Below, one piece after another: positions 8,560 through 18,097 of a stretch of DNA of 21,218 nt. The notes under the pieces are model-generated. The model did no database searches. It was not told the origin of the DNA and worked only from the letters and a program-made list of their open reading frames with translations. Position 1 is the first letter of the stretch. Every line of letters starts with the position of its first letter. This DNA comes from a virus: positions 1 to 21,218 of IMG/VR virus record IMGVR_UViG_3300015368_000132. One strand, 5' to 3'. A program made the position numbers and the translations under genes.

Positions 8560-11500
8560 ATGGCAGACAATTTGATCGATGTTCCTGACGACAATTTGAT
8601 CGATGTTTCGGATACTAATTTAGTTGACGTTCCGAAGGAATCTACGGCGCAGCCAGCGCTGACGGCTCAACAACGCTATCATCAATCTTTGAAAGGGTAC
8701 CATGATCAGGGGACTGAAAATCCTGACGTTGCCCCGGGCTATGTTTCTCCTGAAACTTCCAAGGCGTTTGCGGAAGCTAAATCAAACACCTCATCACTCG
8801 GATCGCAATGGGGCGACGTTGGAACCGGTGCTGCAAAGGGCCTAGCCGGCGGGATTTTTGGGGGTTTTGTTGGTGACATTGAATCTTTTGGCAGGCTTCC
8901 TTTTCAAATTCCAGGCGTCCGAGAATATATAGCTGATGTTTCTCCACATACCGTTATTCCGACGTCTGAAGAGGGCGGATATTTAGGCCCACGCGGCCTT
9001 GGCGCATTTAACGCGCCTGAAACTCCGGAAGAAAAAGGCGGCGTTTTTACAGGATCTTTGTTAACCCCATTCGCTGCGACTGCACCACTCAAGGCGCTGA
9101 GAGGTGCGAGCAAGCTTTCTTCATCTGCTGCTGAGATTGCTAACGCCGCTGAACGTCAAGGGATTAGTATTCCACGAGCTGCAGTTACAGACAACCGTGA
9201 AATGCAAACTGCTGCTGGGTATCTGAAAGAGATTCCATTTGTAGGAACTCCGCTCGTAAAAGCCTCCGAGAAAGCATTGAGTGAAATTGAAGATCTTTCA
9301 GACCGAACAGTTTCCGCGCTTGGAAGCGGCAACAAACTGCGTGCCGGAGACATTGCTTCTGATGCAATTGAGGGGTGGGTCACTGGCAAAAGCAAAACAA
9401 TAGCCACAAAACTATATGACGCAGTTGACCCGTTAGTTAATCCAGAATTCACTCGCCCATTGTTTGAGACAAAAAAGGTGGCAAACGAAATTGCCGCCAA
9501 GCGCGCGAATGCAAAAATTTCAGGAGATAGTCCGGCAATCAGAGAGATTGAAGATGCATTGGCATCTCCGGGAATGAATTATAACGGCGTCAAAGACTTG
9601 CGCACATATATTCGAGAGATGACACCGCAAGAAATGGTTGCAAAAAACATCAACAAGAATGAAGCAAAAATAATTTACGACGCCTTAACCACCGATCTTC
9701 GTGCGACGATACTTGATGCTGGTGGTCCCGATGCGCTGAAAAAGTTCGATAAAGCGAACGATGTTTATAACATTATTGCAGATCGCAGAGCCAGTATTGC
9801 CAAGGTAATTGGCGTAAGCGCCGACGCTGCCCCGGAGAAAGTTATTGATAGAATTACAGCAATGGCAGGAAATGCCGGATCGGCTGATTACCAAACACTT
9901 CAAAAAGTTCGCAAGTCAATTGGTCCAAAGTCTTGGGACGAGGTATCGTCTGCAATTCTCGCAAAAATGGGGCGTGCCAATCCGGAGGCTGCATTTAGCG
10001 CAGACCAATTTGTAACTGCGTGGAATAAACTTTCTCCCAGCAGCAAACAACTATTGTTCAATTCAACTAACCGCCCCGGAATAATAAATGATCTGAATGA
10101 CCTTGTGACGCTTTCAGGCGCACAAAAAAACCTAAGTAAATATGCGAACCCAAGTGGATCTGGCAAAATTGCAACGTTTGCAGCGATGATTCCAGCTATG
10201 TGGACTGCGCCGCTACCTACGATTGCTACAATCATTGGCGGAAGACAGATGGCAAAATTTTTTGCTTCTCCTATTGCAATCAAATCAACAGCGCAATGGG
10301 CAAAAGCCAATAATGCTGCATTCACAACTCCAAACATAATGACAACGGCAAGACTACTTTCTGCAAGTGACAATATAGCGAAAACCTTAAATCGAGAATT
10401 TGGCGGCAATTTTTCCGCAAAAGACTTCATACCGCCGGGTCAGGCCAACGAACCCCCCCGCGCCACGGGCGGCTCCGTGTTCGACAAGATGCACGCGGCT
10501 AAGCATATGCAAGAGGGTGGTGGGTTATCTTCTTTTCTTGAGGGAGAATACAGCGGCAATAAGGAAGGCCAGCATGGCGGAGGGTATTTAGGTATTGAAA
10601 GCCCTACAGGGAATGCAGGTATTGGTGGCCAAGGCTGGAGAGAGAATACACCGGAAGGACGCTTGGGCCGTGCTTCAATAACCAACGTTGACGTTGGTCA
10701 CAAAATAGGCGACCTGAACTTAACAGGGAGTTACAGAGCTAACCAGCGTGAGATTGCAAGGCCGCCGGCGGGAGACAATACTTATTTTGATCCGATAGAG
10801 CACTCTGGTCAAAAATTTCGCATGCCGAATGACATAGACAAGCGGTTTATGCTAGGGCTGTCAAAACAATTTTCTGACGGCGGCTCCGTGTTCGACAAGA
10901 TGCACGCGGCAAAGCATATGGCGGAGGGTGGCGGGACCGACGCCCCTTTTAACGAATGGGATGCCGTCCCGCGCAATGCCGAGGGCATCCCACAGATCAG
11001 GATTGAAAAGCCGCCAGTTAATGAGGCGGACGAAGCGCAGGCCGCGCGTGAGGCAGCCGCCGCTCGCGTTGCTGGCAACGTAAGGGGCGCACCATACGAG
11101 CCAACGCCGCCATCCACCGAAGGCAAGACGTGGATGATGGAGCCCGGCATGGAGGCCATGCTGTCTGGCAACTATGAGATGCCGCCAAATGTCCGACTAA
11201 ACGATGCTGGTATTCCGTACAACGTTGAGACCGGCGAAGAACTACAAATGGCTCGCCGTCCTAACGTCCTTCCTTTTACCAGAACGCCGGATGGTGTTCA
11301 GTGGGCCATGCCGAAGATCGCCGAGCTGGCGGGCGACATCCTTAACCCGTTGGCGGTTACCAAGGGCTTAGCTTTGAATCCCGGCGAGTTTGCTTTGGGG
11401 TCAGGGCCAATCCGCGCTTATCACGGCAGCCCGCACGATTTCGACAAGTTTGATCTAGCCAAGATCGGAACAGGCGAGGGCGCGCAGGCTTACGGGCATG

Positions 11501-13845
11501 GGCTGTATTTTGCGGAGAACCCAAAAGTAGCGGAAACATATAAAGCACCTGCTGGCGTTATTGCCAAAGCACCGCAGGGATGGGTACAGGACACTGCGAG
11601 CAACTTTATTAGTGAGCATGGAAAGGAAGGCGCTCAAAAAGTATTAACAGACTTGATGAGTAAGTCTCCCGAAATGAAGGCAACATTTTCTGATGTTCTC
11701 GCAGCCGTAAAAAATTCAAAACCTTTGGGGAAGATGTATGAAGTCGAGTTAAATGCCAACCCTGAGCATTTTTTAGATTGGGATAAGCCATTGGCAAAGC
11801 AGGGCAGCGCGCTAGATCAGAAATTATACGATTTGCTCGGTAATAGCGGAATTAGCAAAGCCGAAACGAATTTCATTATTAACAATAAAACCGGTCAAGA
11901 TGTTGTTAGGAGAATAGCAAAACCATCTTATCCAATACGCGATACGGTTAGCGAGCCTTGGCGTGCGTCAGGTGCAGGTTCTTTAGATGAGGCATTAGGG
12001 ATGGTTGGTGGCGATAAAAAGAGAGTAAATACAGTCCTTACCCCAAACCCTGCTTACACCTCGCAGTCATTGAACGAAGTAGGAATCCCCGGTATCAAAT
12101 ACCTAGACCAAGGTTCGCGCGCAGCCGGTGACGGATCGCGCAACTACGTCGTGTTCGACCCCAAGATAATCCAGATCATGAAGAAGTACGGCATGACGCT
12201 TCCAGCGGCTACCGCTGCATACGAAGCCATGAAGTCCAATCAAGAAAAGACCGGATTTAAAAAGGGCGGCTCCGTGTTTGACAAGATGCATATGGCGCGC
12301 AAGCGAGCGGAGGGTGGCGGGACCGACGCCCCTTTTAACGAATGGGATGCCGTCCCGCGCAATGCCGAGGGCATCCCACAGATCAGGATTGAAAAGCCGC
12401 CAGTTAATGAGGCGGACGAAGCGCAGGCCGCGCGTGAGGCAGCCGCCGCTCGCGTTGCTGGCAACGTAAGGGGCGCACCATACGAGCCAACGCCGCCATC
12501 CACCGAAGGCAAGACGTGGATGATGGAGCCCGGCATGGAGGCCATGCTGTCTGGCAACTATGAGATGCCGCCAAATGTCCGACTAAACGATGCTGGTATT
12601 CCGTACAACGTTGAGACCGGCGAAGAACTACAAATGGCTCGCCGTCCTAACGTCCTTCCTTTTACCAGAACGCCGGATGGTGTTCAGTGGGCCATGCCGA
12701 AGATCGCCGAGCTGGCGGGCGACATCCTTAACCCGTTGGCGGTTACCAAGGGCTTAGCTTTGAATCCCGGCGAGTTTGCTTTGGGGTCAGGGCCTATCAA
12801 GAGTGACCCTAAGCTATGGCATGGTATTTCAAAAATAAAATTGCCAAAACCTATTTCTGAAATGAATGCAACACGGTCTCCTATTGCGGAAATAGCAGAA
12901 AAACAAATAGTTCCATCTGATCTTCAGGGTGGGTTACTTCTTCCAGCTATTGGGGATAGATCAATAGCCAACGCAAATTTACATGGGTTCAACGGATATA
13001 AATTTGAAGAACCAGTGCCAATGCAAGGAGGCCACGGCTTTATGGCCGCCAACGCTGACAAAGATGTTGCATGGGCATCAGGAAGCCCCGTTATAGGGCG
13101 CATTGCTAGTGATGTTAGAAAATTAAATGAAAGCGGAAACCCTATTTACTTTCCGTATACAGCGATGGGCGAGAGGTCTGTAGACTTTTCACATCATATT
13201 TCTTCAACTCTTGCTGAAGCTTTGAAACAACAACCGTTGACTAGAAATGCTGAACGGCAATTTAACGCTGCAATGAAATCAGATGCTGGATCATTTGGTG
13301 CAGTTAAAAATTGGCCGGGTGTAAACTCACCTTATCTTAAGGACTATCTTCTTTCGTCAAAAGGCGACGTAAGAAATAAATTTGCCAAATTAATGGATAC
13401 AAATAATTTTCAATCTCTTGGTTTTCCAAATGTTGCTGAAGCAAGATTTGCAGTAACTGATCCAAGATTGCTCAACGCTCCTACCGGAGCTGCTGGCATA
13501 TCTGTATCAAAATTAGACCCGTCAGGAAAAATTTTGAAAGATGTATCCGGTCATTTAACTTATGACACAGATTTGGGCGGGAAATATGTTGGGGGTCTGG
13601 GGCGATCAATTCCAAAAGAAGTTTTCTACCCTGACCTTCTTTCTGCATATAAAAAACTAAATTATGAGCCGTTTCAATATGATTATTTAATGTCAAGAGG
13701 AGTTACTGGGGCACCTAGAGCACAAAAAGCAAACCAAAAATGGGTTGATAATGTTTCAAAATGGATTGAAAAAAATCCAAAAGAAGAAACTAAATTTAAT
13801 TCCGGCGGCTCCGTGTTCGACAAAATGAAAAGAGCATCAAAATGA
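8560..13845 (+). CDS. 1761-aa modular polyvalent phage protein with ADP-ribosyltransferase-like cargo
   Basis: An N-terminal ejection-protein-like block (about 60-636) has Gly-rich helices, ERQGISIPRAAVTDNREMQ, long helical stretches and a hydrophobic segment near 540-575 (IATFAAMIPAMW); it resembles internal or DNA-transfer proteins of related phages. A GGSVFDKM linker then recurs at 637, 774, 1236 and 1749. Between linkers lie a 118-aa beta-rich piece (656-773), a 163-aa repeat (788-950) followed by an ART-PolyVal-like domain (951-1230), and the same repeat again (1250-1412) followed by an unidentified domain (1413-1748). The ART-like part has YHGSPHDFDKFDL (His955), GHGLYFAEN (Tyr983) and NYVVFDPKII (Asn1195), plus GIPGIKYLDQGSR, typical of the ADP-ribosyltransferases of large polyvalent proteins. 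The N-terminus holds three NLIDV-type repeats. A likely role is a virion-carried, ejected effector; that is inferred from position and domains. Confidence 0.8.
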   Translation: MADNLIDVPDDNLIDVSDTNLVDVPKESTAQPALTAQQRYHQSLKGYHDQGTENPDVAPGYVSPETSKAFAEAKSNTSSLGSQWGDVGTGAAKGLAGGIFGGFVGDIESFGRLPFQIPGVREYIADVSPHTVIPTSEEGGYLGPRGLGAFNAPETPEEKGGVFTGSLLTPFAATAPLKALRGASKLSSSAAEIANAAERQGISIPRAAVTDNREMQTAAGYLKEIPFVGTPLVKASEKALSEIEDLSDRTVSALGSGNKLRAGDIASDAIEGWVTGKSKTIATKLYDAVDPLVNPEFTRPLFETKKVANEIAAKRANAKISGDSPAIREIEDALASPGMNYNGVKDLRTYIREMTPQEMVAKNINKNEAKIIYDALTTDLRATILDAGGPDALKKFDKANDVYNIIADRRASIAKVIGVSADAAPEKVIDRITAMAGNAGSADYQTLQKVRKSIGPKSWDEVSSAILAKMGRANPEAAFSADQFVTAWNKLSPSSKQLLFNSTNRPGIINDLNDLVTLSGAQKNLSKYANPSGSGKIATFAAMIPAMWTAPLPTIATIIGGRQMAKFFASPIAIKSTAQWAKANNAAFTTPNIMTTARLLSASDNIAKTLNREFGGNFSAKDFIPPGQANEPPRATGGSVFDKMHAAKHMQEGGGLSSFLEGEYSGNKEGQHGGGYLGIESPTGNAGIGGQGWRENTPEGRLGRASITNVDVGHKIGDLNLTGSYRANQREIARPPAGDNTYFDPIEHSGQKFRMPNDIDKRFMLGLSKQFSDGGSVFDKMHAAKHMAEGGGTDAPFNEWDAVPRNAEGIPQIRIEKPPVNEADEAQAAREAAAARVAGNVRGAPYEPTPPSTEGKTWMMEPGMEAMLSGNYEMPPNVRLNDAGIPYNVETGEELQMARRPNVLPFTRTPDGVQWAMPKIAELAGDILNPLAVTKGLALNPGEFALGSGPIRAYHGSPHDFDKFDLAKIGTGEGAQAYGHGLYFAENPKVAETYKAPAGVIAKAPQGWVQDTASNFISEHGKEGAQKVLTDLMSKSPEMKATFSDVLAAVKNSKPLGKMYEVELNANPEHFLDWDKPLAKQGSALDQKLYDLLGNSGISKAETNFIINNKTGQDVVRRIAKPSYPIRDTVSEPWRASGAGSLDEALGMVGGDKKRVNTVLTPNPAYTSQSLNEVGIPGIKYLDQGSRAAGDGSRNYVVFDPKIIQIMKKYGMTLPAATAAYEAMKSNQEKTGFKKGGSVFDKMHMARKRAEGGGTDAPFNEWDAVPRNAEGIPQIRIEKPPVNEADEAQAAREAAAARVAGNVRGAPYEPTPPSTEGKTWMMEPGMEAMLSGNYEMPPNVRLNDAGIPYNVETGEELQMARRPNVLPFTRTPDGVQWAMPKIAELAGDILNPLAVTKGLALNPGEFALGSGPIKSDPKLWHGISKIKLPKPISEMNATRSPIAEIAEKQIVPSDLQGGLLLPAIGDRSIANANLHGFNGYKFEEPVPMQGGHGFMAANADKDVAWASGSPVIGRIASDVRKLNESGNPIYFPYTAMGERSVDFSHHISSTLAEALKQQPLTRNAERQFNAAMKSDAGSFGAVKNWPGVNSPYLKDYLLSSKGDVRNKFAKLMDTNNFQSLGFPNVAEARFAVTDPRLLNAPTGAAGISVSKLDPSGKILKDVSGHLTYDTDLGGKYVGGLGRSIPKEVFYPDLLSAYKKLNYEPFQYDYLMSRGVTGAPRAQKANQKWVDNVSKWIEKNPKEETKFNSGGSVFDKMKRASK
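8566..8637 (+). repeat. Three 24-bp tandem repeats encoding (D/T)N-L-(I/V)-D-V-(P/S)-x
   Basis: Units at 8566-8589, 8590-8613 and 8614-8637 encode DNLIDVPD, DNLIDVSD and TNLVDVPK directly after Met-Ala. The first two units are nearly identical in DNA; the third has diverged at silent and conservative positions. Short acidic/aliphatic repeats at this position recall N-terminal tags seen on other large phage proteins; a packaging or docking signal is a guess. Confidence 0.8.
10468..10524 (+). repeat. Linker motif copy 1 (GGSVFDKMHAAKHMQEGGG)
   Basis: Residues 637-655 of the 1761-aa protein. The first 32 nt are identical to copy 2. It marks the end of the N-terminal ejection-like block and the start of the 118-aa beta-rich piece. 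Confidence 0.85.
10879..10935 (+). repeat. Linker motif copy 2 (GGSVFDKMHAAKHMAEGGG)
   Basis: Residues 774-792. Its last 15 nt belong to the first copy of the 488-bp direct repeat. It precedes the cassette that ends in the ADP-ribosyltransferase-like domain. Confidence 0.85.
10921..11408 (+). repeat. 488-bp exact direct repeat, copy 1
   Basis: Compared base by base with 12307-12794, I find no difference over 488 nt (offset 1386). The repeat encodes residues 788-950: AEGGGTDAPFNEWDAVPRN, an Ala/Glu-rich helix, MMEPGMEAMLSGNYEMPPNV and VLPFTRTPDGVQWAMPKIAE, ending at ALGSGP. It is GC-rich (43 of 60 bases in 11041-11100). The domain just downstream of this copy is the ART-like one. Confidence 0.95.
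12265..12321 (+). repeat. Linker motif copy 3 (GGSVFDKMHMARKRAEGGG)
   Basis: Residues 1236-1254. The core GGSVFDKMH is kept while the middle has changed (MARKR for AAKHM). Its last 15 nt are the start of the second 488-bp repeat copy. Confidence 0.85.
12307..12794 (+). repeat. 488-bp exact direct repeat, copy 2
   Basis: Identical to 10921-11408 and encodes residues 1250-1412. Identity stops abruptly on both sides: the preceding bases differ (linker variants) and position 12795 onward enters a different, AT-rich domain. Perfect identity with no silent change implies recent duplication or ongoing gene conversion. Confidence 0.95.
13804..13845 (+). repeat. Linker motif copy 4, C-terminal (GGSVFDKMKRASK)
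   Basis: The last residues of the 1761-aa protein (1749-1761). The 20-nt core GGCGGCTCCGTGTTCGACAA matches copies 1 and 2 exactly, but the gene ends here, as if a further cassette could be attached. Confidence 0.8.
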
Positions 13846-14381
13846 TCCGCATAACCGTTGTCCTGTTGGCGTTATCTTCCCCGGCATTGGCGCAATCGCC
13901 AAGCCTCGGCATATGCCACGGCGAATTTGCCCTATGTGCAGCCGCCAGCACGGAACCAACCAACCGCAACATTGTGGTCAAGGGCGTCACATTCCGCGAA
14001 GGACACTCGGTCTGCCCAGTGCTGCGCGGGCCGTCTATTGCCGACCTTGGCCTCATGAACGGTTCCTGCGCCACGCCAAAAGGCAAGGTATGGTCGCTGT
14101 TCTCAGCCCGTAGCAAATATCCGCAGGCACCCGACTGGAAGGTCAAGACCGCCGTTCACCGCGCCTTTACAACAACCGCAGCGCCCGGCGGCGGCATGTC
14201 AAACATGTGGTCGTTCCCGTGCGTCGTGCGACCCACCCGCGTCAACGGTCACAAGCTCGCCGACTGCTACGGCCCCATGAACGAAAGCCCGTGGACTACA
14301 ACCGCCATCGGTGCCGGGGTAAAGATCGTCACGGACGCGCCCGCCGGCGCGCCTAATCCGGTCGGCGGCAACATCCCGTGA
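13842..14381 (+). CDS. Secreted six-cysteine protein of unknown function
   Basis: The 179-residue product overlaps the large gene by ATGA and so is translationally coupled. Residues 1-17 (MIRITVVLLALSSPALA) form a signal peptide with an ALA|Q cleavage site. The mature part has six cysteines (ICHGEF, LCAAA, SVCPVL, GSCATP, FPCVV, DCYGP), enough for three disulfides in the periplasm. It has several Trp/Gly/Pro-rich loops (APGGGMSNMWSFP) and no catalytic motif that I recognise. It sits directly before the endolysin, so a part in lysis or in superinfection control at the envelope is possible. I cannot assign a family. Confidence 0.7.
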   Translation: MIRITVVLLALSSPALAQSPSLGICHGEFALCAAASTEPTNRNIVVKGVTFREGHSVCPVLRGPSIADLGLMNGSCATPKGKVWSLFSARSKYPQAPDWKVKTAVHRAFTTTAAPGGGMSNMWSFPCVVRPTRVNGHKLADCYGPMNESPWTTTAIGAGVKIVTDAPAGAPNPVGGNIP

Positions 14382-15178
14382 CCGCCGCCAATTTCAGCAA
14401 GTGTCTGGCGCTGGTCCTCAAACACGAGGGCGGCAACGACGACGATCCACAGGACCCCGGCGGGCGCACGTCTCGCGGCATAACCCAACGGGAATACACA
14501 TCTTGGCTGGGCGAGCCGAAAGACGTCTGGAAAGCCACCGACAAGGAAGTCAAGGCAATCTACAAAACCCAGTACTGGGATCCGTGGTGCGATCGCCTGC
14601 CGGACGGGGTTGACTACGAAGCCTTCGATATGTTCGTCAATATGGGGCCTGTGCAGGGCGCTCGTATTATCCAGCGAGCCGTGGGCGTCACAGCCGATGG
14701 GCATATGGGCCTCGTGACCCTAGACGCCATTTTAGGGCAATTCGACAAATCGTCTATCATCCGGCAAATAAGCGACCGGCGGAGGGCTTTTTACCGGTCA
14801 CTGAGGACGTTTAGCCATTTCGGCAGGGGCTGGCTGCGGCGGGTCGATGAAGTCGAACAGGCGGCCCTTAAAATGGTCGTGGCAGAACCCATTCCGCAAG
14901 GCATTATGTCCACAGACTTGCCCGATACTGCCCCTAGGGCGTCCACTCAGAAGGCCGACGACAAAGCCCTCAATATGACCCCAGAAACTGCCGGCGGTGC
15001 CTCTGCGGGCCTTGGCAGCGTCACGGCAACCATTGACCAGATACAGCAGCAACTGGCCCCCTATTCGGACACTATCCGGTACGTCAAATACGGCCTCCTT
15101 TTGCTGACCATTCTTGCCGCAGGCATTGCGGTATGGGGCTTGATTAAGCGCAACCGCGCCAAGGACGCTTCAAATTGA
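14378..15178 (+). CDS. GH108 endolysin (N-acetylmuramidase) with C-terminal membrane segment
   Basis: The 266-residue protein starts at a GTG overlapping the previous stop (GTGA). Residues 1-90 show the glycoside hydrolase 108 signature: KHEGGNDDDPQDPGGRTSRGI with the catalytic Glu17, then REYTSWLG and YKTQYWDPWCDRLPDGVDYEAFDMFVNMG. Residues about 93-170 (RIIQRAVGVTADGHMG, DRRRAFYRSL, FGRGWLRRVDEVE) match the peptidoglycan-binding domain usually paired with GH108. A linker leads to a hydrophobic helix at about 238-255 (GLLLLTILAAGIAVWGLI) with basic residues after it. There is no N-terminal signal, so export probably needs a holin; the C-terminal anchor could hold the enzyme at the inner membrane. 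It breaks the glycan strands during lysis. Confidence 0.9.
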   Translation: MTAANFSKCLALVLKHEGGNDDDPQDPGGRTSRGITQREYTSWLGEPKDVWKATDKEVKAIYKTQYWDPWCDRLPDGVDYEAFDMFVNMGPVQGARIIQRAVGVTADGHMGLVTLDAILGQFDKSSIIRQISDRRRAFYRSLRTFSHFGRGWLRRVDEVEQAALKMVVAEPIPQGIMSTDLPDTAPRASTQKADDKALNMTPETAGGASAGLGSVTATIDQIQQQLAPYSDTIRYVKYGLLLLTILAAGIAVWGLIKRNRAKDASN

Positions 15179-15435
15179 TGATTTCCTTTTTATTCTCGCC
15201 CCTCGGCAAATACTTGTTTTTGGCCGCCCTCATCGCGTCAAGTTGGGTCGGCATAAAAATACACTACGAAAATGTAGGTTATCAAAAAGCCATTCACGCC
15301 ATAGCCGCCCAGGATGGCGCAGCCAAAAAGGAAGCCGATCGTGCCAAAGACACTGTTGAGAAATGTTTTGCTGATGGCGGCGACTGGAGCGTTGCTGATG
15401 GGGTGTGCATCCTCGCCGGTCCCGGCAAGCGTTAG
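15178..15435 (+). CDS. Putative inner-membrane spanin subunit (Rz-like)
   Basis: The ATG shares one base with the endolysin stop (TGATG); a TTG one codon earlier is less likely. The 85-residue product has one N-terminal transmembrane helix (about 10-28, KYLFLAALIASSWVGIKI) followed by a charged helical stretch (KAIHAIAAQDGAAKKEADRAKDTVEK) and two cysteines near the end. This is an i-spanin layout, although shorter than classical Rz. The call rests mainly on position after the endolysin and on the lipoprotein gene that starts inside it in the +1 frame, the arrangement of Rz/Rz1. Spanins fuse inner and outer membranes at the final lysis step. Confidence 0.65.
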   Translation: MISFLFSPLGKYLFLAALIASSWVGIKIHYENVGYQKAIHAIAAQDGAAKKEADRAKDTVEKCFADGGDWSVADGVCILAGPGKR

Positions 15436-15565
15436 CGGCCTTAACAAGGTCTTCCGCGATCCTGGATTTGCCGTCAAGGGCAAGACACGCCGCGATCAAG
15501 AATGGATTAGCGAAACACAGGAAGCTGGCATCCGCGTTCTCGGGTGGAAGCGCCCTCGGCAATGA
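15314..15565 (+). CDS. Putative outer-membrane lipoprotein spanin subunit (Rz1-like)
   Basis: The gene begins inside the i-spanin candidate in the +1 frame and extends 130 nt past it. The 83-residue product has a basic n-region (MAQPKRKPIVPKTLLR), a hydrophobic core (NVLLMAATGALLMG) and a lipobox LMGC with Cys31 as the probable lipidated residue. Ser-Ser at +2/+3 fits outer-membrane sorting. The mature part is about 53 residues (ending EAGIRVLGWKRPRQ). An ATG at 15374 would remove the basic region and spoil the signal peptide, so 15314 is preferred. The stop overlaps the next start as ATGA. Confidence 0.7.
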   Translation: MAQPKRKPIVPKTLLRNVLLMAATGALLMGCASSPVPASVSGLNKVFRDPGFAVKGKTRRDQEWISETQEAGIRVLGWKRPRQ

Positions 15566-15813
15566 TTGACGTGGCGCACATGGAATATCAAACACTGGTT
15601 AATTGGGGCGTTTACATATCAATCGCAATTGGCGGCTGGTTCTGTAAACAAATATGGGACGCTGTCGGAAAATTAAAAGAAGACATACACAAAATTGAAG
15701 TTGATCTGCCGTCGATCTACATTCGCAAAGACGAATTTGCCGATAGCATGAAAGAAATAAAAAACATGCTCAATAAAATCTTCGACAAACTTGATGAAAA
15801 AGCAGACAAGTAA
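15562..15813 (+). CDS. Small membrane protein, holin candidate
   Basis: Starting at the ATG that overlaps the lipoprotein stop (ATGA), the product is 83 residues; a second ATG lies at 15580. One transmembrane helix is predicted by eye at about 11-30 (VNWGVYISIAIGGWFCKQIW). A charged, helical C-terminal half follows (KLKEDIHKIEVDLPSIYIRK, KEIKNMLNKIFDKLDEKADK). This TM-plus-coiled-coil layout ending in KIFDKLDEKADK is common in small proteins beside phage endolysins. A holin or holin-regulator role is inferred from size and place; nothing in the sequence proves pore formation. It is the last gene of the plus-strand arm. Confidence 0.65.
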   Translation: MIDVAHMEYQTLVNWGVYISIAIGGWFCKQIWDAVGKLKEDIHKIEVDLPSIYIRKDEFADSMKEIKNMLNKIFDKLDEKADK

Positions 15814-15846: not shown

Positions 15847-16173
15847 TTAACGAGCTACAAGAAGACCAGTGGTCGCACCAGCGCCCGCGCCGATCACGGC
15901 ATAGGAACCGGCAACGCCAACAGTCGAAGTCGCCGCAAGCGTGCCACCGGCAATCGAGCCGCCAGCCGCGCCGACGATCGCGCCAACGCCAAAACCAAGA
16001 GCGCCGCCGACAATCGCGCCGCCAACGATACGGTCAAGCGGCGAGCAATTGGCCGGAATGAAGAAAATCCCACATTCCAGAATCGACGGCGAACGATCAA
16101 CGTGGCGATCTTTGGCAACAGCCGGAGCCGCCGACAAGGCAAGCGCGGCAAGCGTAAGAGCAAGTTTTTTCAT
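15847..16173 (-). CDS. Secreted glycine-zipper protein
   Basis: The start at 16173 has GAGGAG 7 nt upstream; an earlier in-frame ATG (16188) lacks this. The 108-residue product has a signal peptide (MKKLALTLAALALSAAPAVA|KD), two cysteines (LECGIFFIPANC) in a short ordered region, then a long Gly/Ala-rich hydrophobic stretch with GxxxG spacing (GGAIVGGALGFGVGAIVG, GGSIAGG, GAGAGATTG). Glycine zippers of this sort pack in membranes and occur in outer-membrane and surface proteins, including some toxins. It is the last gene of the minus-strand arm, 47 nt after the secreted peptidase, and its role is probably at the envelope. Function unknown. Confidence 0.7.
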   Translation of the reverse strand: MKKLALTLAALALSAAPAVAKDRHVDRSPSILECGIFFIPANCSPLDRIVGGAIVGGALGFGVGAIVGAAGGSIAGGTLAATSTVGVAGSYAVIGAGAGATTGLLVAR

Positions 16174-16220
16174 TTCAGAACTCCTCAAGTTAATGGGCGG
16201 AATGCCCGGTCGAACGGGGA

Positions 16221-16775
16221 TTAAGCCCCCGAAACATATGCGATCACAAGGCGAGCGGGGTATACGCCTTCACGAACAAGGCGATTGTGATTTCCTGAAA
16301 CAATGATTGGGTTGTTGCCCTCAAACCCGGTCACGATGCCGACGTGGCCCCCGTTGCGGCCTCGTGCGAATACAGCAATTGCTCCGACCTGTGGGCTTAC
16401 ATGCGGCAGGGTGGCCCAGTCGCGGGCCCGGTTGGGGTTCTTGATCTTGGCTGCGGCTTCAGGCGCAACCATCGCCATGAACTTGCCGCACCATACGGCG
16501 TTCCAACCGGTAGGATTTGTGCCAAGGTAGTGCCGCGCCTTATCTACCAGATAGTCGCCGGACGCAACTACGTCTGAAACAACGCGCCGGGCGTGCTTGT
16601 TTGCCTTGCGGGTAATCTCAACGAAAACTTTCGGTGCCTGATGTACTTCATCGGATTGCCTGCAGCCTCTTTCGTCACAGAAAATATACGATTCGGCAAT
16701 GCGTGGCTTGGCATAGGCGGACGTCGTAATAAACAAAGCAGCAATAGCAACTGCCATGATCTTAAGTGTCGTCAT
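16221..16775 (-). CDS. Secreted TIGR02594-type Cys/His peptidase (peptidoglycan hydrolase)
   Basis: The 184-residue product starts with a signal peptide (MTTLKIMAVAIAALFITTSAYA|KP). The C-terminal half matches the TIGR02594/CHAP-like pattern: ARHYLGTNPTGWNAVWCGKFMAM with Cys96, VGAIAVFARGRNGGHVGIVTG with His144, and IIVSGNHNRLV with Asn162/His163. These families cut cell-wall peptides as amidases or endopeptidases. The middle (APKVFVEITRKANKHARRVV) carries no domain I know. Export by the Sec system means it reaches the periplasm without a holin, unlike the plus-strand endolysin. It lies 44 nt downstream of the 52-aa membrane gene. Confidence 0.8.
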   Translation of the reverse strand: MTTLKIMAVAIAALFITTSAYAKPRIAESYIFCDERGCRQSDEVHQAPKVFVEITRKANKHARRVVSDVVASGDYLVDKARHYLGTNPTGWNAVWCGKFMAMVAPEAAAKIKNPNRARDWATLPHVSPQVGAIAVFARGRNGGHVGIVTGFEGNNPIIVSGNHNRLVREGVYPARLVIAYVSGA

Positions 16776-16819
16776 AGGAGACCCCTTTTGAGTTGGGTTA
16801 TTATGGCGCGCGCTTAGGA

Positions 16820-16978
16820 TTAAGCGAACGTAGTTTTTAAGACTAACAAAACACCCAATAATATCATAAATGTCACAAACAATACAAGGCTAACAAGGAA
16901 GTAAGTAACCACACTATAAGTGTAGACCTCTGGCTTTAGATTGAGACTTTTTAGCCTATAAGGCTTATGAAAACCCAT
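16820..16978 (-). CDS. 52-aa single-pass membrane protein
   Basis: A short frame reading MGFHKPYRLKSL at its start, then about 22 residues of membrane helix (SVVTYFLVSLVLFVTFMILLGVLLVL) and the end KTTFA. A basic N-terminus before the helix suggests N-in topology. It starts 3 nt after the stop of the 29-aa gene and fills most of what would otherwise be a 290-nt gap. Spacing, strand and a continuous hydrophobic segment support a real gene. No family is recognised; a small holin, antiholin or membrane regulator beside the secreted peptidase is possible. Confidence 0.6.
   Translation of the reverse strand: MGFHKPYRLKSLNLKPEVYTYSVVTYFLVSLVLFVTFMILLGVLLVLKTTFA
16911..16923. promoter_or_regulatory. 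13-bp palindrome ACACTATAAGTGT
   Basis: A perfect 5-bp inverted repeat around ATA. It shares the CTATAAG core with a second palindrome 42 bp away. It lies within the 52-aa membrane gene (codons for TYSV), so codon constraint could explain it; an operator role is only a possibility. Confidence 0.25.
16953..16965. promoter_or_regulatory. 13-bp palindrome AGCCTATAAGGCT
   Basis: Second 5+3+5 palindrome with the same CTATAAG core, centre-to-centre distance 42 bp (four helical turns) from the first. It lies in the codons for KPYRL of the 52-aa gene. The pairing is suggestive of a protein-binding pair but unproven. Confidence 0.25.
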
Positions 16979-16981
16979 TTT

Positions 16982-17071
16982 TCACCCGATAAGTAAGAGA
17001 AAAAAGTAAAATATAACTGAAAACGCCAACGACATCACGGAAATCATTGTTATTTCCAATATTGCGTTCAT
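16982..17071 (-). CDS. 29-aa membrane mini-protein
   Basis: ATG at 17071-17069 overlaps the stop of the upstream 60-aa gene (ATGA), and AGGAAG lies 5 nt before it, inside that gene. The product, MNAILEITMISVMSLAFSV continuing IFYFFLLLIG, is almost wholly hydrophobic with one acidic residue. Overlap, ribosome site and the closely following 52-aa membrane gene argue that it is translated. It is too short for a family assignment. Confidence 0.5.
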   Translation of the reverse strand: MNAILEITMISVMSLAFSVIFYFFLLLIG

Positions 17072-17250
17072 TTTATCTTCCTTTTTGCAACGCTGGACAC
17101 GCCAGACCCAAGCAAAAACTGACGATGAATAAACTCTAGGGATTCCAGCAATGTGGCCTGGTTGCCTTCTAGGATAGCCTGCGCGGCTGTATCCGTTGCC
17201 GCGTCGAGCATCGTCACGATGCTTCGGATTTCTCCAACAAGTTTGACCAT
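17068..17250 (-). CDS. 60-aa helical protein of unknown function
   Basis: The ATG at 17250 comes one base after the previous gene's stop and is preceded by GGGG/GGAATGAA; a start nine bases further up would overlap that gene. The product (MVKLVGEIRSIVTMLDAATD, then AILEGNQATLLESLEFIHRQFLL) is predicted helical, mildly acidic in the middle and basic at the end (AKRKIK). No motif is recognised. Its tight placement between the DUF6378-like gene and the two membrane mini-genes suggests a single transcript. Confidence 0.6.
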   Translation of the reverse strand: MVKLVGEIRSIVTMLDAATDTAAQAILEGNQATLLESLEFIHRQFLLGSGVSSVAKRKIK

Positions 17251-17251
17251 T

Positions 17252-17545
17252 TCATTCCCCCTGTTCATCACCGTCTATCTCCCGTAGCATTTGAGTGTAG
17301 ACGGCGGCGTCATCCAATGAATCCGCATGCCCCCCGTTGTCGAATGATTGGGCATATCGGCACATTTTCATTATTACCATTGTAAAGGTTACAAATCGGT
17401 TAATGTCGTCTGCTGTTTCCAGATTGATTTTACCATCGAAAATTTCCCACAAGACGTTACCAACACGCTTATAAGTGTCTCCGTACTGGGCATTGCGCTG
17501 CTGATACAGCTTTGCAAGTTCAGCTAGTTGGCTTGGGACGGTCAT
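17252..17545 (-). CDS. Small DUF6378/DUF1599-like phage protein
   Basis: The 97-residue product contains RNAQYGDTYKRVGNVLWEIF, the 'YGD' start of a helical phage family (DUF6378, related in pattern to DUF1599, 'nucleotide modification associated domain 1'). A helix (NRFVTFTMVIMKMCRYAQ) and an acidic helix, DSLDDAAVYTQML, follow, equivalent to the D-x-x-x-D-x-x-x-Y of that family. Such proteins accompany phage nucleotide metabolism genes; an activity is not established here. The gene overlaps the upstream HAD gene by 26 nt, supporting a shared role. The family match is from memory. Confidence 0.6.
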   Translation of the reverse strand: MTVPSQLAELAKLYQQRNAQYGDTYKRVGNVLWEIFDGKINLETADDINRFVTFTMVIMKMCRYAQSFDNGGHADSLDDAAVYTQMLREIDGDEQGE

Positions 17546-17963
17546 TGGCTACCTGAAATGAGACAACGCCAGCTTTCTTGAATGTATCAATGACGTCGTC
17601 TCGATCATCGAAAATGCAAAGAACATCGGATTTGATATCTTTAAATCGCGTTATCGCAAGGTCCATTTTCATCACCGGAGCAGGCCGGTAGTCGGTGTCT
17701 TTCCGCATCAACAATTCATTGTACGGAATGTCGTGTTTTGAGAGCCACTGCAAAGTATCTTGCCGCCATTTTTCAGGACGTGCTGTAATGAAAATAATCG
17801 CATGCCCCGCATCGGCCAAAGCTATCAAAATATTAACCATGGCCGATATCGGCAGATCATACGCGGCTTCAGAATGGTAAGTGTCCCAATCCCCGCCAAT
17901 GAGCGGGTCGCGCCATGTGGCGTTAGACACTGTGTGGTCTATGTCGCACAATACGGTTTTCAT
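17520..17963 (-). CDS. HAD-superfamily phosphatase, polynucleotide kinase 3'-phosphatase-like
   Basis: The 147-residue protein begins MKTVLCDIDHTVSN: Asp7 and Asp9 form the DxDxT nucleophile motif of HAD phosphatases. WRDPLIGGDWDTYHS resembles the segment following the nucleophile in the phosphatase domain of T4 polynucleotide kinase. FITARPEKWRQDTLQWL supplies motif II (Thr), ELLMRKDTDYRPAPVMKMDL the Lys region, and CIFDDRDDVIDTFKKAGV the acidic motif. There is no P-loop, so it is a phosphatase only, perhaps removing 3'-phosphates from nucleic acid ends or acting on nucleotides. It is the first gene after a 134-nt gap and overlaps the following small gene. Confidence 0.8.
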   Translation of the reverse strand: MKTVLCDIDHTVSNATWRDPLIGGDWDTYHSEAAYDLPISAMVNILIALADAGHAIIFITARPEKWRQDTLQWLSKHDIPYNELLMRKDTDYRPAPVMKMDLAITRFKDIKSDVLCIFDDRDDVIDTFKKAGVVSFQVANDRPKPTS

Positions 17964-18051
17964 GGAAGTATTCTTGGCCCGGTTCCCGGCTTACGCTTTG
18001 GTAATGCGGTGCGAATCGCTCGGATCGTGGGGGAGACCACTGTCGACCCGT

Positions 18052-18077
18052 CCAGCCGGGGGTCACTTTGCGGCTGG
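18052..18077 (-). other. Inverted repeat in the 134-nt gap between the nuclease and HAD genes
   Basis: CCAGCCG (18052-18058) and CGGCTGG (18071-18077) form a perfect 7-bp stem with a 12-nt loop, 20 nt after the nuclease stop. No T-tract follows on the minus strand, so it may be a weak terminator, an RNA processing site or an mRNA stability element. The rest of the gap (17964-18097) shows no convincing gene. Confidence 0.35.
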
Positions 18078-18097
18078 TTAACCAAAGACCAAGCTCC

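Follow-up and report, generated by a model that had tools for sequence, protein, structure and literature searches.

The window analysed here, the complete virus record IMGVR_UViG_3300015368_000132 (21,218 bases), carries two sets of genes on opposite strands that converge near 15.8 kb. The plus strand encodes phage structural proteins, including the virion structural protein phrog_3287 and a 1761-aa protein matching 'DNA transfer protein', and an endolysin cassette (14378-15813). This cassette comprises a GH108 endolysin (14378-15178), a spanin-like frame (15175-15435) with an embedded lipobox frame (15314-15565), recognized by inspection and matched weakly by phrog_1152 (E=0.2), and a phrog_462 protein annotated as 'lipoprotein' (15544-15813). 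The minus-strand run consists of genes for a lambda-type exonuclease, a RadD-like helicase, a VRR-type nuclease, a polynucleotide-kinase-type phosphatase (HAD) and a DUF6378-like protein, and continues with a 60-codon gene, two small frames of 29 and 52 codons (ORF29 and ORF52), a CHAP-domain protein and a 108-codon glycine-rich protein. The helicase and DUF6378-like matches both lie below the curated cut-off, and the VRR-type nuclease is named after the annotations that similar phage genes carry. ARAGORN finds no tRNA, and the whole window gives no Rfam match at gathering threshold.

ORF29 (16982..17071, minus strand) and ORF52 (16820..16978, minus strand) occupy the gap between the 60-codon gene (17068..17250, minus strand, without a family match) and the CHAP gene. 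The initial annotation described two head-to-tail minus-strand frames of 29 and 52 codons, and on re-reading all of its sequence details hold: the ATG of ORF29 lies within an ATGA overlap with the 60-codon gene, AGGAAG stops 5 nt before this ATG, and 3 nt (AAA) separate the TGA stop of ORF29 from the ATG of ORF52. GGGTGA lies just ahead of ORF52, and both it and AGGAAG resemble ribosome-binding sites. The CHAP gene starts 44 nt beyond the ORF52 stop. G+C content is 33-34% in the mini-gene stretch, against 50% and 55% in the flanking genes. Both lie in a single reading frame, a point absent from the initial annotation, and only TGA-AAA parts them (16820..17071, minus strand); readthrough of the UGA would yield an 83-residue two-helix protein. 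The RNA fold of the junction is unremarkable (z -1.1; 29/200 shuffles fold as well).

Each product has one strongly hydrophobic stretch, with a best 19-residue Kyte-Doolittle mean of 2.54 for ORF29 and 3.04 for ORF52, values reached by 80/5000 and 16/5000 random open frames matched in length and base composition, respectively. Hydrophobic frames arise readily, as the sequence is T-rich; among random open frames, ~10% of those with 29 codons and ~22% of those with 52 codons reach a mean of 2.0. Single-sequence AlphaFold2 predicts the ORF52 product, which has a basic N-terminus, to be one helix (residues 16-51). For the joined 83-residue read, the model has helices at residues 2-33 and 47-82, and in between a short helix of low confidence. 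A transmembrane helix in each member, as a holin/antiholin pair would have, is thus predicted from the hydropathy of both and the modelled helix of the 52-residue product. When the 252 nt are shuffled 20,000 times with dinucleotides preserved, a comparable pair (head-to-tail ATG frames of ≥20 and ≥40 codons, spaced by -4 to 6) appears 14 times, and in a single case both members are membrane-like (19-residue mean of at least 1.8). The longer frame by itself is not very rare, since 487/20,000 shuffles yield an ATG frame of at least 52 codons, 120 of those 487 being membrane-like.

Six near-relative contigs (first locus numbers L002, L003, L004, L008, L011 and L016) were compared with the window, and four of them span the gap; L011 stops at the ORF29 start and L016 within the helicase gene. 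Stops or frameshifts in both frames in close relatives had been named beforehand as the observation that would speak against the pair, and none occur: both frames are open in 4/4 spanning contigs, whose aligned 1080 bases (905 for L008) contain no indels. L004 replaces the ATG start of ORF29 by TTG, which can also serve as a start codon. Most of the information is contributed by L002 and L004, with 4 and 7 differences from the window in ORF29 and 3 and 2 in ORF52, respectively, because L003 departs from the window at a single site and L008 at none in the two frames. The 12 variable sites among the window, L002, L003 and L004 fall at codon positions 1 (six) and 3 (six) and never at position 2 (P=0.0064). 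When the substitutions are relocated randomly among sites with the same base (5000 trials), an amino-acid cost as low as that observed arises in 0.34% of trials in the true frame (P=0.0034) and in 49% and 98% in the shifted frames; the positive controls, the 60-codon gene and the CHAP gene, give 0/5000 each. Taken singly, ORF29 reaches P=0.014 and ORF52 P=0.063, above 0.05. Amino acids are altered in 3/4 of the changed ORF29 codons in L002 and in 5/7 in L004 (start codon included), mostly by exchanges between hydrophobic or small residues, while the ORF52 changes are S11R in both L002 and L004, which is not conservative, and V35L in L002. If these frames are constrained, the constraint would bear on residue character and not on residue identity. 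Open frames with coding-type substitutions, seen at 12 variable sites in four contigs of a single lineage, a sample too small for dN/dS, lend support to the 'two membrane mini-genes' of the initial annotation and suggest that ORF29 and ORF52 are probably genes.

In the window, 134 nt separate the VRR and HAD genes (17964-18097, minus strand), and this gap too contains an open frame, which starts with TTG and has an ATGA junction. An insertion of 1 nt brings an earlier stop into this frame in L002, L003 and L011 (3/5 relatives), possibly as one event because the three share it, and the frame stays open in L004 and L008. The lineage can thus lose an open frame, a fate that the mini-genes have escaped, although a single event supports them weakly.

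Counterparts of the mini-genes were found only in the four spanning contigs. Searching 50 loci with both mini-proteins by tblastn returns only the window locus (L001) and the loci of these contigs, plus one chance-like ORF52 match (L046, E=0.38, 30 residues). In IMG/VR, 133 stretches match the patterns for ORF52 and 71 those for the 83-residue read, four being kept in each case, all in the same contigs, and no uninterrupted homologue of the joined read is found there; in GTDB genomes, 578 stretches match for ORF52 and none is kept. Both scans require exact short peptide patterns, and distant copies may escape them. GenBank phages give no match to ORF29 or, at E up to 10, to ORF52. Pfam, PHROGs, NCBIfam and PADLOC provide no convincing or above-cut-off family match for the mini-genes, the sub-cut-off matches being Pfam MRAP (E=0.015) and NCBIfam SosA (E=0.14) for ORF52 and NCBIfam AmaP (E=0.063) for the 83-residue read. 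Frames read by eye around distant CHAP relatives (L031-L038, up to 900 nt either side) and in DUF6378-like relatives (L046, L047) include nothing mini-gene-like. Of seven helicase relatives (L018-L024, about 55-65%), only L018 and L020 have sequences extending well beyond the VRR gene, and neither matches the block from the HAD gene to the 108-aa gene. General literature searches return no paper on the ORF29 or ORF52 proteins. Phage small proteins (<100 aa) are a known kind, of which millions are spoken of in a review (PMC11323111). ORF29 and ORF52 resemble them as very short phage genes of the same size class; however, the examples in the cited part of that review act on gene expression, whereas ORF29 and ORF52 are predicted membrane helices for which homologues were not found.

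The CHAP-domain protein (16221..16775, minus strand) is TIGR02594-like, under the cut-off of that model, and is presumed to be a peptidoglycan hydrolase. It has a signal-like N-terminus by inspection, its best hydrophobic stretch lying at residue 4. Together with the glycine-rich 108-aa protein (15847..16173, minus strand; also with a signal-like N-terminus by inspection), it forms a two-gene cassette (15847-16775, minus strand) that occurs in two phage backgrounds. The two genes adjoin each other again in L005, L006 and L007, at about 80-84% protein identity, and no match to ORF29 or ORF52 is present in these loci. In L007, CHAP is preceded by a different gene, which by inspection is of replication type and ends 57 nt ahead of it, and downstream other-strand genes again converge. 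The cassette closes a replication or recombination run, convergent with other-strand genes, in both the window and L007. A CHAP scan of GTDB genomes gives 68 stretches, none of them kept. The leader of the CHAP gene (16776..16819, minus strand) contains the blocks GCCATAAT and AACC, which are present in both phage backgrounds; the edge of the cassette is therefore placed just after ORF52, and its left edge is apparently this leader.

The mini-genes do stand directly before what is presumably a secreted peptidoglycan hydrolase, as first annotated, and CHAP is accompanied by them in 4/4 near relatives spanning the gap. The conserved association that would be expected of a holin/antiholin pair and its hydrolase is nevertheless broken by L005, L006 and L007, where the CHAP pair occurs without the mini-genes; they are thus no obligatory partners of the hydrolase.

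The best reading of the locus is that ORF29 and ORF52 are lineage-specific coupled membrane microproteins; we put the probability that they are real, coupled phage genes for accessory inner-membrane microproteins in a recombination/repair run at slightly under one half (about 0.47). A tailed phage would encode the two as translationally coupled genes, each product would be a one-helix microprotein inserted in the inner membrane, and both would be expressed early or mid infection, within the minus-strand recombination/repair run. Their role is probably accessory, judging from position, and might consist, for instance, in changes to the host envelope or in superinfection exclusion. The CHAP and 108-aa cassette, with its own leader, would close the same run, which would explain why the mini-genes precede CHAP. 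One-helix toxic peptides such as the bacterial TisB provide another comparison: ORF29 has about their size and hydrophobicity but differs in having no family match, in lying inside a phage gene run and in a start that overlaps the upstream gene. Genes this short are easily overlooked, and the modest comparative data favour two real membrane microproteins. If translated, their products would be phage orphans that act at the host membrane.

A lysis-timing role, in which a holin/antiholin-like pair permeabilises or tunes the membrane and acts together with either the CHAP hydrolase or the endolysin close by, is unlikely but is the strongest competitor. Holins and antiholins are small and strongly hydrophobic, as are ORF29 and ORF52, which adjoin the presumed hydrolase gene and lie ~1 kb from the endolysin cassette. 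The endolysin resembles the NCBIfam 'holin-associated N-acetylmuramidase', below cut-off, yet no holin family match is found among the lysis-region proteins scanned, and the phrog_462 protein is only weakly hydrophobic (best hydropathy mean 1.05), leaving the lysis region with no separate holin identified. However, the endolysin itself carries a hydrophobic stretch near the C-terminus (2.20 at residue 237) that might serve instead. The holin/antiholin-like pair of the initial annotation fares poorly on several further counts. The mini-genes match no holin family in PHROGs, Pfam or NCBIfam, they have one helix each, and they lie on the minus strand, opposite to the endolysin cassette. The hydrolase to which they were tied bears its own signal-like N-terminus and, in L005-L007, does without them. 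Phage recombination and repair genes are generally early or middle, whereas holins are late, so the setting of the mini-genes also speaks against holins.

Two further readings are improbable, to about the same degree. The first holds that ORF29 and ORF52 are halves of one two-helix membrane protein, with the TGA either dividing it into two peptides that interact or being read through at low level to give a minor 83-residue form. Consistent with this, only TGA-AAA interrupts the common frame, the TGA and the next ATG are kept in 4/4 relatives, and the joined read is modelled as two helices. However, a common frame is expected by chance in 1/3 of cases, the IMG/VR search yields no uninterrupted homologue, and a single-sequence model says little on the association of the halves; moreover, the HAD, DUF6378-like and 60-codon genes end in TGA too, which gives no sign of a changed code. 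The common frame puts a split or readthrough hairpin within direct reach of experiment. That the in-frame UGA is maintained as a balance between separate halves, formed by reinitiation 3 nt on, and a joined form, so tuning membrane activity, is very improbable. The second reading takes the frames as products of chance or decay in an AT-rich stretch that is untranslated or a remnant. The low G+C relative to the flanking genes, the orphan status of the frames and the few variable sites would fit, but the codon-phase result, the rarity of such pairs in shuffles, the overlap packing, the retention of both frames in 4/4 relatives and the contrast with the broken VRR-HAD gap frame all argue against it.

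Other parts of the window show features of their own. The fold computed for the VRR-HAD gap is branched, its 40 pairs distributed over 6 helices, with 160/160 cells paired over four sequences and 2 pairs changed on both sides. The controls for this fold are weak, as 68/500 shuffles reach it, the fold z is -1.2 and the structure is derived from the same sequences. Rfam matches to the gap stay at chance level (best E=3.9) and blastn against phages finds nothing; the sequence of the gap is possibly an unrecognised structured RNA. The phosphatase and DUF6378-like domains are encoded here by two overlapping genes (17252-17963, minus strand), which the phrog_4889 profile matches at different ends. 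In phages of Rhizobium and Serratia, genes annotated as hydrolase or polynucleotide kinase cover the DUF6378-like part, so that the domains look fused there. On the plus strand, the 1761-codon gene contains a 488-nt exact direct repeat (10921-11408 and 12307-12794), which is either a recent duplication or an assembly artefact.
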